In this document: positions 23,844 to 40,050 of the stretch, one piece after another
Layout: the number at the start of each line of letters is the position of its first letter
How positions within the stretch are numbered: position 1 is the stretch's first letter
Program-made: the position numbers and the translations under genes
The notes under the pieces: model-generated
Told to the model about the DNA's origin: nothing
What the model saw: only the letters and a program-made list of their open reading frames with translations
The model's database searches: none
Source: an uncultured Coriobacteriaceae bacterium
Lineage (GTDB): Bacteria > Actinomycetota > Coriobacteriia > Coriobacteriales > Coriobacteriaceae
Length of the DNA: 64,000 nucleotides
Direction: 5' to 3'
Assembly (NCBI GenBank): GCA_944320725.1
Contig: CALUIM010000020.1
Span: 1 to 64,000 of the forward strand

Positions 23844-23993
23844 TGTGCAAAAATTGCGGTAGTGCACGCCTAACTATGAGTATGCATTTTTATTTAAGTT
23901 TTATACATATAAAACCGCAGGATTCGGAAGATCAGACCCGTCCCACAACACCTCTCCTCTCGTAAGGTCGTGCACTATCGTCATTTTTGCACA
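23844..23993 (+). repeat. 150-bp palindromic-ended element, copy 1
   Basis: Begins TGTGCAAAAATTGCGG and ends CGTCATTTTTGCACA. The outer 27 bases at each end are imperfect inverted repeats that always differ at the same TTGC/TGAC positions. The middle is AT-rich, then variable. The length is exactly 150 bp in all three copies (the others are 34092-34241 and 39779-39928), all in the same orientation. On the minus strand each copy holds a 27-codon frame, here 23901-23984. No target duplication is evident. Confidence 0.85.
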
Positions 23994-34091: not shown

Positions 34092-34241
34092 TGTGCAAAA
34101 ATTGCGGTAGTGCACGCCTGATTTTGCGTATACATTTTTATGTCTGTTTTATGCATACAAAACCGCAGGATTCGAGCATCGGAGTCCGTTCCGCGACGCC
34201 CTGTTCCCAAGCAGGTCGTGCACTACCGTCATTTTTGCACA
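34092..34241 (+). repeat. 150-bp palindromic-ended element, copy 2
   Basis: Second copy, exactly 150 bp, upstream of the HTH-kinase pair. The ends match those of copy 1 except at one position. An internal AT-rich hairpin (GTATACAT...ATGCATAC) is clearest here. The minus-strand 27-codon frame runs 34232 to 34149 and ends at the same relative position as in the other copies. Confidence 0.85.
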
Positions 34242-36225: not shown

Positions 36226-37491
36226 CTAGAGGTCGCTCGGCAGGGCGATGTGACCGGCAACAGCAGATGCGGCGGCAACGGCGGGGCTGGCAAGGTAGAC
36301 CTCGGACGTCGGGTCGCCCATGCGTCCCACGAAGTTGCGGTTGGTGGTCGAGACGCAACGCTCGCCCGCAGCGAGGATGCCCATGTAGCCGCCCAGACAC
36401 GGGCCGCAGGTAGGCGTCGAGAACACGCAGTTCGCGTCGATGAACACATCGGCCAGGCCCTCGGTCATGCACTGCTTGAACACGGCCTGCGTGGCGGGAA
36501 TCACGATGCAGCGCACGTTCTCGTTGACCTTACGGCCGCGCAGCACCTCGGCGGCGGCGCGCATGTCTTCAATGCGCCCGTTGGTGCAGGAACCGATGAC
36601 AGCCTGATCGATCGTGATGTCGCGGCTCTCGGTCACGGGATGCGTGTTGGAGGGCAGATGCGGCCAGGAGACGCACGGTTTGATATCGGCGGCATCGATA
36701 TGGATGACCTGCGCGTACTCGGCATCCACGTCGGCGTGGTACTCCACGTACTCGCGCTCGCAGCGCCCCTCGAGCCATGCGCGCGCCACGTCGTCGACTT
36801 CCATGATGCCGGCCTTGCCGCCCGCCTCGATGGCCATGTTGGAGATGCACATGCGCCCTTCCATAGAAAGGCTTGCAATGGTGGAGCCGGTGAACTCCAT
36901 AGCCTGGTAGAGCGCACCATCAACGCCGATGAGGCCGATGATGTGGAGGATGATGTCCTTCGCAGCGGCGCCGTCGGTAAGCTCGCCGTCGATGACGAAC
37001 TTGATGGTGGGCGGCACCTTGAACCAGGCGCGGCCGGTGGCGAGACCCACGCCGGCATCGGTGGAGCCCACGCCGGTGGAGAAGGCACCCAGCGCACCGT
37101 AGGTGCAGGTATGCGAGTCGGCGCCAATCACTAGGTCGCCCGGGACTACAACGCCCTGTTCGGGCAGCAGCGCGTGCTCGATACCCGCGCAGCCCTGCTC
37201 CCAGTAGTGCGTAATCTTCTGCTCGCGGGCGAAGTCGCGCATCTTCTTGGTTTGCTCGGCGCTCTTGATGTCCTTGTTGGGCGCATAGTGGTCGGGCACG
37301 AGACACACGCGGTCGCGGTCGAACACCTCGGTGGCACCCAGCTCGCGGAACACATCGATCGCGATGGGTGCGGTGATGTCGTTGGCGAGCACGAGGTCCA
37401 GGTCGCACTCGACGAGCTGCCCGGGACGGACCTCATCGAGCCCGGCATGAGCCGCCAAGATCTTCTCGGCTACAGTCATAGGACGTGGCAT
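36226..37491 (-). CDS. leuC: 3-isopropylmalate dehydratase large subunit
   Basis: 421 residues, the length of the archaeal/actinobacterial-type LeuC. It carries the 4Fe-4S cluster. Cluster cysteines are visible in IGSCTNGR and TCGPCLGGYMG, and ADSHTCTYGALGAFSTGVGS is present. ATG 37491 has AAAGGAG at good spacing. It is separated from leuA by 265 bp that contain two large hairpins, whereas leuD follows almost at once. Confidence 0.95.
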   Translation of the reverse strand: MPRPMTVAEKILAAHAGLDEVRPGQLVECDLDLVLANDITAPIAIDVFRELGATEVFDRDRVCLVPDHYAPNKDIKSAEQTKKMRDFAREQKITHYWEQGCAGIEHALLPEQGVVVPGDLVIGADSHTCTYGALGAFSTGVGSTDAGVGLATGRAWFKVPPTIKFVIDGELTDGAAAKDIILHIIGLIGVDGALYQAMEFTGSTIASLSMEGRMCISNMAIEAGGKAGIMEVDDVARAWLEGRCEREYVEYHADVDAEYAQVIHIDAADIKPCVSWPHLPSNTHPVTESRDITIDQAVIGSCTNGRIEDMRAAAEVLRGRKVNENVRCIVIPATQAVFKQCMTEGLADVFIDANCVFSTPTCGPCLGGYMGILAAGERCVSTTNRNFVGRMGDPTSEVYLASPAVAAASAVAGHIALPSDL

Positions 37492-37520
37492 TGGTTCTCC
37501 TTTACATATCCAAATGGGCC

Positions 37521-37601
37521 GGACCGTATCTATCATCCCGTGCTCAGACAGTCCTCGCGCTTCGCGCTGCGGAACTGCGCGCGGGACGATAGATACGGTC
37601 C
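37521..37601. repeat. Covarying hairpin element A between leuA and leuC
   Basis: 81 nt that fold into one long stem: outer arm GGACCGTATCTATC (37521-37534) with its exact complement (37588-37601), then CCCG/CGGG, CAGTCC/GGAACTG and a CGCGCTTCGCG tip. The inner part is shared in inverted orientation with element B (37661-37743). The outer arms are unrelated to those of B but self-complementary in both. Confidence 0.8.
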
Positions 37602-37660
37602 ACCCTTCTGTTACCTAGTTCAATCGAGCATTGCCGGATAGAGTGGGACGCAATGAGGGT

Positions 37661-37743
37661 CGCTGGGTTTTCGTCCCTGCGCAGTTCCGCAGGCAAGCGA
37701 AGCGCAGCCGAGGACTGTTTGAGCAAGGGATGAAAACCCAGCG
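37661..37743. repeat. Covarying hairpin element B after leuA
   Basis: 83 nt that begin CGCTGGGTTTTCGTCCCT and end with the complement (one G-U type change). The core is CTGCGGAACTGCGC...ACAGTCCTCG on the minus strand, as in element A. It starts 13 bp after the leuA stop. There is no T run, so it is not an ordinary terminator. Confidence 0.8.
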
Positions 37744-37756
37744 CCCCCCTAGAAAC

Positions 37757-39280
37757 CTACTTCTGCTGGTCGGAGATCAGGCGGTTCAGGGCGTTCAGGT
37801 AGGCCTTGGTGGAGGAGACGATGATGTCGCCATCCGAGCCGCGGCCGATGTAGACCTCACCGTTCTCGGCAGTCACGCGCACCGTGACCTCGCCGAGCGC
37901 GTCGATACCGCGCGTCACGGCCTTGACCGAGAACTCGGAAAGGTCGTTCGCCACGGTGACGATCTTATCGACTGCCTTGTACGCCGCATCGATGGGGCCG
38001 GTGCCGTAGGCGCACTCGGTGAAGGTCTCTCCGCCCATGTTGGTGAGCGTGATGGTGGCCGTCGGTGTGAGCGGGAAGCCGCAGGAAACCTGCACGGCGT
38101 CGAGGTTCCACACAGCCGTGGACACGCGCTCGCGCTCGTGAACGATGCTCTCGAGATCCTCGTCGTAGACTTCCTTCTTCTTGTCGGCCACCTCGAGGAA
38201 CGATTGGTAAATGTCCTCGAACTCCTCGTCGGAGAAGGTGAAGCCCAGCTCACCCATGCGATGACGCAGCGCCGCGTGGCCGGAACGGGCAGAGAGGATG
38301 ATCTGCGAGCCGCCGGCGCCCACATCGGCCGGGTCGATGATCTCGTAGGTATCGCGGGCCTTGAGCACGCCGTCCTGATGAATGCCCGAGGAGTGCGCGA
38401 ACGCATTGGCGCCCACGATAGCCTTGTTGGCCTGAACCTGCATGCCGGTGATCGAGCTCACGAGCTTGGAGGCGTGCGTGAGCTCCTTGGTTACGATGTC
38501 GGTGTGCGCGTCGAGCTCGGCGCCGTGCATGCGGATAGCCATGACGACCTCTTCGAGGGCGGTGTTGCCCGCGCGCTCGCCCAGACCGTTGATGGTGCAC
38601 TCGACCTGCGTGGCACCGTTGCGCACGGCCTCGATGGCAAGCGCGGTTGCCATGCCAAGATCGTTGTGGGTATGCACGGAGATGGTGGCGTCCTCGATGC
38701 CGTCCACGCGCTCGCGCAGATCGGCGATGCGGGCACCGAATGCCCAGGGCATGTTGTAGCCGGTGGTATCGGGAATGTTCACCACGGTAGCGCCCGCCTT
38801 GATGGCCGCCTCGATGATGCGCACGAGGAAGTCCTGGTCGGCGCGGCCGGCATCCTCGGCGTAAAACTCGACGTCATCCACGAAGTTGCGAGCGAGCTTC
38901 ACGGCATGGATGGCGCGCTCTACAGCCTCGTCCTCGGTCATGCGAAGCTTATCGCGCAGGTGGGAGGGGCTCACACCGAGACCCGTATGGATACGCGGGC
39001 GCTTGGCGGTCTTGAGCGCCTCGGCGGCGACCTCGATGTCCTTATCGACTGCGCGCGTGAGGCCGCACACGGTGCAGCGATCGCCCGCGATGCGGCCGAT
39101 CTCGGCCACGCTCTTGAAGTCGCCCGGGCTCGAAATGGGGAAACCGGCCTCGATAACGTCGACGTTCATGCGAATGAGCTGCCGCGCGACGATAAGCTTT
39201 TCCTCGGTGTTCATGCTGGCGCCGGGCGACTGCTCGCCATCGCGGAGCGTGGTGTCGAAGATAGCGATCTTACGGGTCAT
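37757..39280 (-). CDS. leuA: 2-isopropylmalate synthase
   Basis: Condenses 2-oxoisovalerate with acetyl-CoA, the first committed step of leucine synthesis. 507 residues, the usual long form with a catalytic TIM barrel (about 1-270: FDTTLRDGEQSPG, EAGFPISSPGDF, HTHNDLGMA, NGLGERAGN). A C-terminal allosteric domain binds leucine for feedback inhibition (about 380-500). The ATG has GGAGGAACC upstream. A leader peptide and terminator precede the gene. Confidence 0.95.
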   Translation of the reverse strand: MTRKIAIFDTTLRDGEQSPGASMNTEEKLIVARQLIRMNVDVIEAGFPISSPGDFKSVAEIGRIAGDRCTVCGLTRAVDKDIEVAAEALKTAKRPRIHTGLGVSPSHLRDKLRMTEDEAVERAIHAVKLARNFVDDVEFYAEDAGRADQDFLVRIIEAAIKAGATVVNIPDTTGYNMPWAFGARIADLRERVDGIEDATISVHTHNDLGMATALAIEAVRNGATQVECTINGLGERAGNTALEEVVMAIRMHGAELDAHTDIVTKELTHASKLVSSITGMQVQANKAIVGANAFAHSSGIHQDGVLKARDTYEIIDPADVGAGGSQIILSARSGHAALRHRMGELGFTFSDEEFEDIYQSFLEVADKKKEVYDEDLESIVHERERVSTAVWNLDAVQVSCGFPLTPTATITLTNMGGETFTECAYGTGPIDAAYKAVDKIVTVANDLSEFSVKAVTRGIDALGEVTVRVTAENGEVYIGRGSDGDIIVSSTKAYLNALNRLISDQQK

Positions 39281-39778: not shown

Positions 39779-39928
39779 TGTGCAAAAATTGCGGTAGTGC
39801 ACGCCTAAAAAGCGATATACATCTTATATTGATTTTTATTCATAAAAAAGCGCAGGATAAGACGCTGCTACCGACAGCGAAACAAGGCTCCGGTACGGCA
39901 GCTCGTGCACTACCGTCAAAATTGCACA
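39779..39928 (+). repeat. 150-bp palindromic-ended element, copy 3
   Basis: Third copy, the most diverged in the middle (the right end reads CGTCAAAATTGCACA) but still exactly 150 bp. The minus-strand 27-codon frame is 39919 to 39836 and starts with TTG instead of ATG. It lies between the leu leader region and the end of the surface-protein operon. Confidence 0.82.
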
Positions 39929-40050
39929 TTTTTACAACGCGAACGCGGCAATGCCTGCGCTGCACGGCGCTTTTTGGGTCATGGAAATGTATAAAACGGT
40001 GTGGCTCGTTCATGGTTACCTGGTTGGGACAGCTCGCGGCTGCCAGCGTC

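Follow-up and report, generated by a model that had tools for sequence, protein, structure and literature searches.

The gap between leuA and leuC holds an inverted pair of hairpins, elements A and B, which we interpret, at a probability of about 0.5, as non-autonomous dispersed DNA hairpins of a REP/REPIN-like kind, with a core that would be recognised and arms that would be kept matched by template-switch copying. The hairpin family to which they belong is large, patchily distributed over several phyla and apparently undescribed.

Elements A and B between leuA and leuC

Both hairpins were found in the window (the whole 64,000-nucleotide stretch analysed) where a preliminary description of this DNA had placed them, and a repeat search recovered their arms and inverted core. 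The description had them carrying inverted copies of one core between unrelated, self-complementary arms. The core copies are indeed inverted (A on the plus strand, B on the minus strand), and the outer arms differ between A and B while each pairs near-perfectly with its own partner. The pairing, described as perfect, is interrupted once in each arm pair, by an A.C that reads as G.T on the opposite strand. The shared core, put at about 55 bp, is shorter, at about 31 nt (TGCTCARACAGTCCTCG / CTGCGGAACTGCGC). It consists of a 17-nt and a 14-nt half, since the apical stem that lies between them is not the same in the two elements. The features of the locus are as follows.

37521..37601, plus strand: element A, whole hairpin (outer arms, core, apical stem); from sequence, inverted repeat and model match (4.6e-17)
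37521..37540, plus strand: A 5' variable arm GGACCGTATCTATCATCCCG; pairs with 37581-37601 except for one A.C; both arms changed together in relatives (leu-site comparison)
37541..37557, plus strand: A core 5' half TGCTCAGACAGTCCTCG; conserved among copies, by construction in the portion matched by the search pattern
37558..37566, plus strand: A apical stem-loop CGCTTCGCG; variable among copies
37567..37580, plus strand: A core 3' half CTGCGGAACTGCGC; from sequence and genome matches
37581..37601, plus strand: A 3' variable arm; from sequence and inverted repeat
37602..37660, no strand: spacer of 59 bp between the inverted pair, a length typical of close pairs
37661..37743, minus strand: element B, whole hairpin, inverted relative to A; from sequence, inverted repeat and model match (5.8e-13)
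37726..37743, minus strand: B 5' variable arm (minus strand CGCTGGGTTTTCATCCCT); from sequence and inverted repeat
37709..37725, minus strand: B core 5' half TGCTCAAACAGTCCTCG; from sequence
37693..37708, minus strand: B apical stem-loop GCTGCGCTTCGCTTGC; from sequence
37679..37692, minus strand: B core 3' half CTGCGGAACTGCGC; from motif match
37661..37678, minus strand: B 3' variable arm; from sequence and inverted repeat
36226..37491, minus strand: leuC, downstream gene; from ORF and gene finder
37757..39280, minus strand: leuA, upstream gene; from ORF and gene finder

The gene names leuA and leuC follow the preliminary description. The leuC start lies 29 nt downstream of A and the leuA stop 13 nt upstream of B, and the two elements occupy most of the 265-bp gap. 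DNA folding gave z values of -6.7 (top strand) and -7.1 (bottom strand) for A, and of -4.0 and -6.6 on the two strands of B. No terminator-like or sigma-70-like site was found in 37480-37770, nor any GC stem followed by a T-run.

The window also carries a second repeat family, with copies of about 150 bp that are about 80% alike at 23844-23993, 34092-34241 and 39779-39929. They start with TGTGCAAAAATTGCGGTAGTGCACG, and two of them end in the inverted form ..GTCATTTTTGCACA. This family is MITE-looking, with terminal inverted repeats of about 25 bp, and two copies bracket the leu operon.

A conserved core between a variable outer stem and a variable tip

Copies of the element share a plan of variable outer stem, core and variable tip stem. 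The core is conserved and asymmetric, and comprises a 2-bp GC helix, a 5-nt TCARA bulge, CAGT/ACTG, a bulged A, CC/GG and a small internal loop. Within the window alone, the core 14-mer at 2 mismatches was found twice against 1.05 expected, which could be chance. Across the genome of the window (G000), the 3' half at no more than one mismatch gave nine matches, of which eight were elements and one (L008) was not. The genome-wide core search that had been proposed thus yielded eight element copies in G000, and the core recurs in relatives too. A covariance model, R1, was built on 44 copies with a structure specified by us; it gave 14 copies in G000 and 16 in G005 at E<=1e-3, from 17 listed at E<=0.1 in each.

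Exact-pattern searches understate how far the core varies. Among the variants were GCTCGRACAG..GGAACTCGCG, TCGCTGGTCCTCG..CTGCGGAAGCG and a form without the inner TCC/GGA. As a separate observation, three loci of genus g5 of the family (L029, L032, L039) have a terminator-like tip stem (A-run, GC stem, T-run) nested within the core.

Distribution across genomes and phyla

The exact gapped core pattern was present in 7 of 9 genomes of the genus and 18 of 65 genomes of the family, while a reversed-pattern control had 0 matches in any of the 65 family genomes. R1 at E<=1e-5 matched in 111 of 197 genomes of the class, representing 49 of 93 genera. Eight further genomes had from 3 to 100 R1 matches each, the count for G069 to be read as a minimum.

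A pattern scan with one genome per species returned at least 118 stretches, 80 of them with titles. Among the 80 titled stretches listed, 18 came from other phyla (Bdellovibrionales 7, Hydrogenedentota 6, Omnitrophota 4, Myxococcales 1), the names being those in the titles of metagenome-assembled genomes (MAGs). One MAG of each held 30, 52, 9 and 11 copies, respectively, at E<=1e-3. The copies in Bdellovibrionales and Hydrogenedentota have AT-rich flanks, unlike those in Coriobacteriia, which makes contaminating Coriobacteriia contigs an unlikely source in these two cases.

Searches of existing collections returned nothing that corresponds to the element. Rfam at its gathering threshold found only a tRNA in the window, and in eight loci searched at E<=5 nothing that matched the element attained its gathering score. 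Phages, plasmids and IMG/VR contained no match. Core words occurred, among open-access papers, only in ones of unrelated title, and the open-access papers that came up in searches on Coriobacteria RNA motifs and on REP/MITE sequences in Coriobacteria have nothing on it in their titles or the openings of their abstracts.

The two arms of a copy change in concert

Among 138 copies with enough flank, the outer arms had a median length of 28 bp (90th percentile 71, maximum 113), and about 90% of aligned arm positions were Watson-Crick pairs. The arms of L231 had 83 pairs in 85, and those of L102 had 45 in 45. Arm sequences were mostly unrelated between copies. Over all 137 copies scored, rather than the 44 chosen for R1, the median stem score was 17 for a copy's own arms and 2 for arms swapped between copies; own arms exceeded the 95th percentile of swapped arms in 94.9% of copies and the 99th in 76.6%, although the swapped set includes relatives with similar arms. 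About 5% of copies were unpaired or barely paired, so the outcome named beforehand as speaking against the description (unpaired arms, or one arm type only) appeared only to a marginal extent.

Orthologous sites behaved in the same way. At the leu and thr sites of related species, both-sided changes that kept the pairing numbered 210 against 39 one-sided ones, each site being compared in five species whose pairs are non-independent. At thr, leu A and leu B, compensated double changes numbered 56, 95 and 59, one-sided changes 13, 13 and 13, and double changes not paired in both 11, 13 and 14. The arm covariation that the preliminary description proposed to examine is therefore seen both across 137-138 copies and at orthologous sites, and the covariation score of the 44-copy alignment, given below, agrees with it.

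There were exceptions to the lack of arm similarity. The ten G066 copies listed have arm and flank in common, and G069 copies have common arm blocks split by a variable block that is complementary within each copy. These common blocks and flanks imply that arms travel with the core. From such comparisons of copies, the whole hairpin seems to spread, its arms then changing in concert.

On the reading we favour, the core would serve for recognition by a putative trans-acting protein that would spread or maintain the elements. The protein would read it as folded DNA, the bottom strand (5' GCGCAGTTCC...) being the likelier one. The outer arms would be kept complementary at the DNA level, most likely by replication template-switching (quasipalindrome correction), in which an arm is recopied from its partner before mutations can drive the two apart, the arm sequence itself being under little or no selection. 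The host may tolerate the elements, and perhaps benefit from them, after stop codons and between the genes of an operon. Template switching would account for arms whose pairing persists over 45-85 bp although the earlier sequence has gone, and for the missing G.U signature.

Two further features were noticed at outer ends. In the Hydrogenedentota MAG (G066; L048, L127, L130 and others) a second perfect hairpin precedes each copy, e.g. CAGCGATTCTCGGCG..CGCCGAGAATCGCTG, and one of its halves recurs after the element. In long-armed copies of G065 (L085, L224, L231), both sides carry an outer end resembling AAGGTGCCTGACACTTTTTCCAGTCC, which is suggestive of terminal repeats in this genome.

Possible selection on an RNA stem

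The elements might instead be functional RNA hairpins (mRNA 3'-ends, intercistronic stabilisers, processing sites or terminators), with arms under compensatory selection in the transcript, an explanation that we consider unlikely. It draws on both structure and position. The apical stem is terminator-like in some genomes (AAAAGCCCGCC..GGCGGGCTTTT), outer arms in the Hydrogenedentota MAG show an A-run and a T-run (GGCCTGCTCG..CGAGCAGGCC), and the stems covary, with a score of 0.365 in the 44-copy alignment against 0.106 when shuffled (0 of 500 shuffles reached it). In the same alignment 86% of cells were paired against 69.6% when shuffled, a count that leans towards structure because these copies were picked for stem score >=12, as well as for tips of limited length.

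An RNA stem under selection is expected to tolerate G.U and not A.C, and in rRNA, according to PMC8794818, G-U pairs were involved in about 78% of the two-step compensations. The outer arms do not follow this expectation. Farther than 9 nt from the core, the element strand of 110 distinct copies had 57 G.T and 58 A.C mismatches, and the transcribed strand in tandem gene contexts had 39 G.U and 35 A.C; copies with low stem scores (cut-off 10 or 12) are left out of these counts, as they are of the end-tag, direct-word and folding counts below. Equal numbers of G.U and A.C argue against selection on the stem at the RNA level, of which the outer arms show no sign, and leave DNA-level copying or DNA-level selection. 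The earlier suggestion of either selection for a stem or a copying mechanism is thus partly supported: the concerted arms bear it out, and the mismatch counts speak against selection on the stem as RNA.

Gene context, for which a home-made gene finder was used, fits a role at transcript ends, and a placement in transcribed rather than promoter gaps is equally part of the favoured reading. Hairpins often begin within tens of nt after a stop codon. The Coriobacteriia loci comprised 24 convergent, 1 divergent and 51 tandem gaps, against 25, 56 and 149 background gaps, so that divergent gaps are avoided (1/76 versus 56/230, p 4e-7) and convergent ones enriched (24/76 versus 25/230, p 6e-5). Most copies are intergenic: 14 further copies in the Coriobacteriia loci and, in the tally of placements, 16 of 115 were called inside genes. 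Copies of G069 and G070 lay in 20 convergent, 5 divergent and 42 tandem gaps, the other 7 of 74 being inside a gene or at its edge.

Orientation speaks against the RNA explanation. Single copies in tandem gaps were sense in 22 cases and antisense in 13, and in the other set (G069, G070) 11 and 16, i.e. without preference, the two sets overlapping in some loci; with singles in either orientation, the core would have to be two different RNAs. The lack of a terminator in the leu gap likewise counts against it.

Single copies outnumber pairs. Close inverted pairs were arranged '+ then -' in 21 of 21 sequence-distinct cases, with the TGCTCA sides facing outwards as at leu, and with gaps between model ends of 48-487, mostly 48-128. 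Same-strand neighbours also occur (L097, L090, L086, L307, L318, L355). Element orientation was weakly positive with respect to regional GC skew (96/164, p 0.035; Wilcoxon 0.10). In G070, strong copies were on the plus strand at 0.09-1.2 Mb, with exceptions, and on the minus strand at 1.30-2.11 Mb, and roughly follow GC skew.

Site occupancy and possible DNA-level selection

Of 30 leu regions in the family, 12 had a pair between leuA and leuC and 14 had none, the remaining 4 not being called; gaps without a pair were as short as 14 nt. The thr locus was equally varied. thrB and thrC nearly touch in G000 and G001, and an element pair is present in G006 and G002. A '+'/'-' pair in G003, G004, G005 and G007 brackets an inserted two-gene operon of about 3 kb that splits thrB from thrC. 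In G008, one element abuts the thrB ribosome-binding site without room for a promoter, so a full terminator there would silence thrB, a further point against the RNA explanation. The insert of about 3 kb, exemplified by L252 (G005:C1:461000-467000), occurs in 4 of 9 genus genomes, and its first gene presumably encodes a protein resembling beta-glucosidase.

It counts against the favoured reading that neither a mobiliser nor a clean insertion with target duplication was found. No clean insertion boundary was seen either, and at leu and thr there was no empty site with an arm-arm hairpin lacking the core. Direct words outside the stems were in slight excess (2.83 versus 2.40, sd 0.15), a value confounded by genome composition. 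Outer ends, when looked for as MITE-type terminal inverted repeats, were conserved among the copies of some genomes only. Sites remain occupied from genus to genus as their arms are replaced, a persistence that may point to a function for the host and is a further point against the favoured reading.

Such long-lived occupancy would suit selection on the hairpin as DNA, either as a cruciform for a nucleoid or recombination protein or as a folded strand for a recombinase, in which no template-switch copying takes part. This is an unlikely explanation in our judgement, yet together with the RNA role it is one of the two rivals that we keep in play, and the folding bias and the surviving mismatches and bulges described next point its way. 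For the bottom-strand core of the favoured reading there is also a mismatch bias. Within 9 nt of the core, A.C mismatches outnumbered G.T by 43 to 10, which read on the other strand are G.T wobbles, and the excess was alike in sense (8 versus 3) and antisense (19 versus 4) copies. The bottom strand folds better with DNA parameters in 100 of 121 copies, while the core's own T0.G14 is a wobble on the top strand, opposite to the near-core bias. Together, the near-core and folding data point to hairpin DNA of which one strand is preferred, rather than to a transcript, and are only suggestive because the copies are related by descent and have the core in common. Particular near-core mismatches, and bulges in G069 copies, persist beside changed arms; pure template-switch correction does not predict this, and selection for a recognised shape would explain it. 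Selection would, however, have to police 45-85 bp nearly free of mismatches (L102, L231), where one mismatch hardly alters the fold.

Possible mobilisers

We also entertain, as a long shot, a hairpin-binding enzyme that is neither a Y1 HuH protein nor a reverse transcriptase. It would spread the elements by reading the core as a folded bottom strand and rebuild an arm from its partner in every round. Copies would then be born perfectly matched, and their arms would drift as a unit. If true, this would be a mobile palindrome, present across several phyla, with the core as its identity and the stem as a renewable copy.

A REP/REPIN mobilised by a Y1 (RAYT/TnpA-REP) transposase would resemble these elements in its inverted doublets with a spacer of tens of bp, its extragenic multi-copy habit and its bulged palindromes with strand-specific features, as described for REPs in PMC3116915 and PMC8266576. 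This highly improbable reading is already contradicted. The Y1 transposase (PF01797) was found in 6 of 14 genomes, a sample that includes G037, which has no R1 match, and was absent from 8, including several high-copy carriers; G005, G066 (52 copies), G070 (47 copies), G071, G073 and others lack it. GTAG/CGTC tags were found at stem ends in 28 of 121 copies against 23 of 121 in control windows. An all-against-all ORF comparison over loci L043-L160 revealed no recurrent protein family near the element, the largest ORF cluster spanning 16 loci and the next 6. The linked REP-type transposase that had been suggested as a check is therefore not linked, and only a divergent Y1 protein that the profile missed in every one of the genomes lacking a match could revive the reading. 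As general mobilisers, both RAYT and the reverse transcriptase RVT_1 (PF00078, in 3 of 13 genomes) were rejected.

On another reading, terminator hairpins came first and the core landed in their loops as a small insertion, which would make the arms local terminators. This would fit arms that differ from site to site and elements that sit after genes, and is scarcely credible given arms of 45-113 bp that far exceed terminators, the lack of T-runs in most copies, and the arm blocks and flanks that the G066 and G069 copies have in common.

Comparison with known systems

If the favoured reading is right, the gut Coriobacteriia and distant phyla carry a large repeat family that is nameless in the libraries searched. 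It would offer natural replicates of concerted stem evolution, with numerous copies in each genome and orthologous sites in related species, together with an internal mismatch test able to tell selection on RNA from copying of DNA. The family would also be a warning that strong covariation, often taken to prove that an RNA is functional, need not come with an RNA signature.

Integron attC sites, with their folded bottom strand, unpaired core bases and variable terminal stem, may be comparable to the elements. They differ in having conserved R'/R'' ends and an integron integrase, whereas the elements described here are variable on the outside.

REPINs and BIMEs are likewise multi-copy, extragenic and palindromic, and form inverted doublets with a spacer of tens of bp, and where their hairpins vary the changes are compensatory; their end REP sequences are conserved and linked to RAYTs (PMC3116915). 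Here, by contrast, the conserved core lies near the tip, the outer arms vary and Y1 is absent in most genomes checked. The GTAG and CGTC REP superfamilies are also small palindromic repeats found in several phyla, the CGTC REPs being said to be without a dedicated transposase, and the text of PMC3733652 has 0 mentions of Eggerthella, Collinsella, Slackia or Actinobacteria. Our elements differ from them in having no stem-end tag and stems of up to about 113 bp. The E. coli REP bound by TnpA-REP shares a conserved hairpin bulge, and the strand-specific reading of folded single-stranded DNA that would apply here has been shown there; that REP has a GTAG motif and a cognate TnpA-REP (PMC8266576), and neither was found here. 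With no GTAG/CGTC tag and no consistent Y1 transposase, we class the family as an interspersed palindromic repeat and not as a REP.

The mechanism offered for arms that change together has its closest parallel in template-switch hairpins. PMC8794818 and PMC7202029, the latter on E. coli quasipalindromes, report that stems can arise and be mended by template switching. Those cases are rRNA stems or reporter sites, whereas the repeats described here are dispersed as a family and their asymmetric core is protected.
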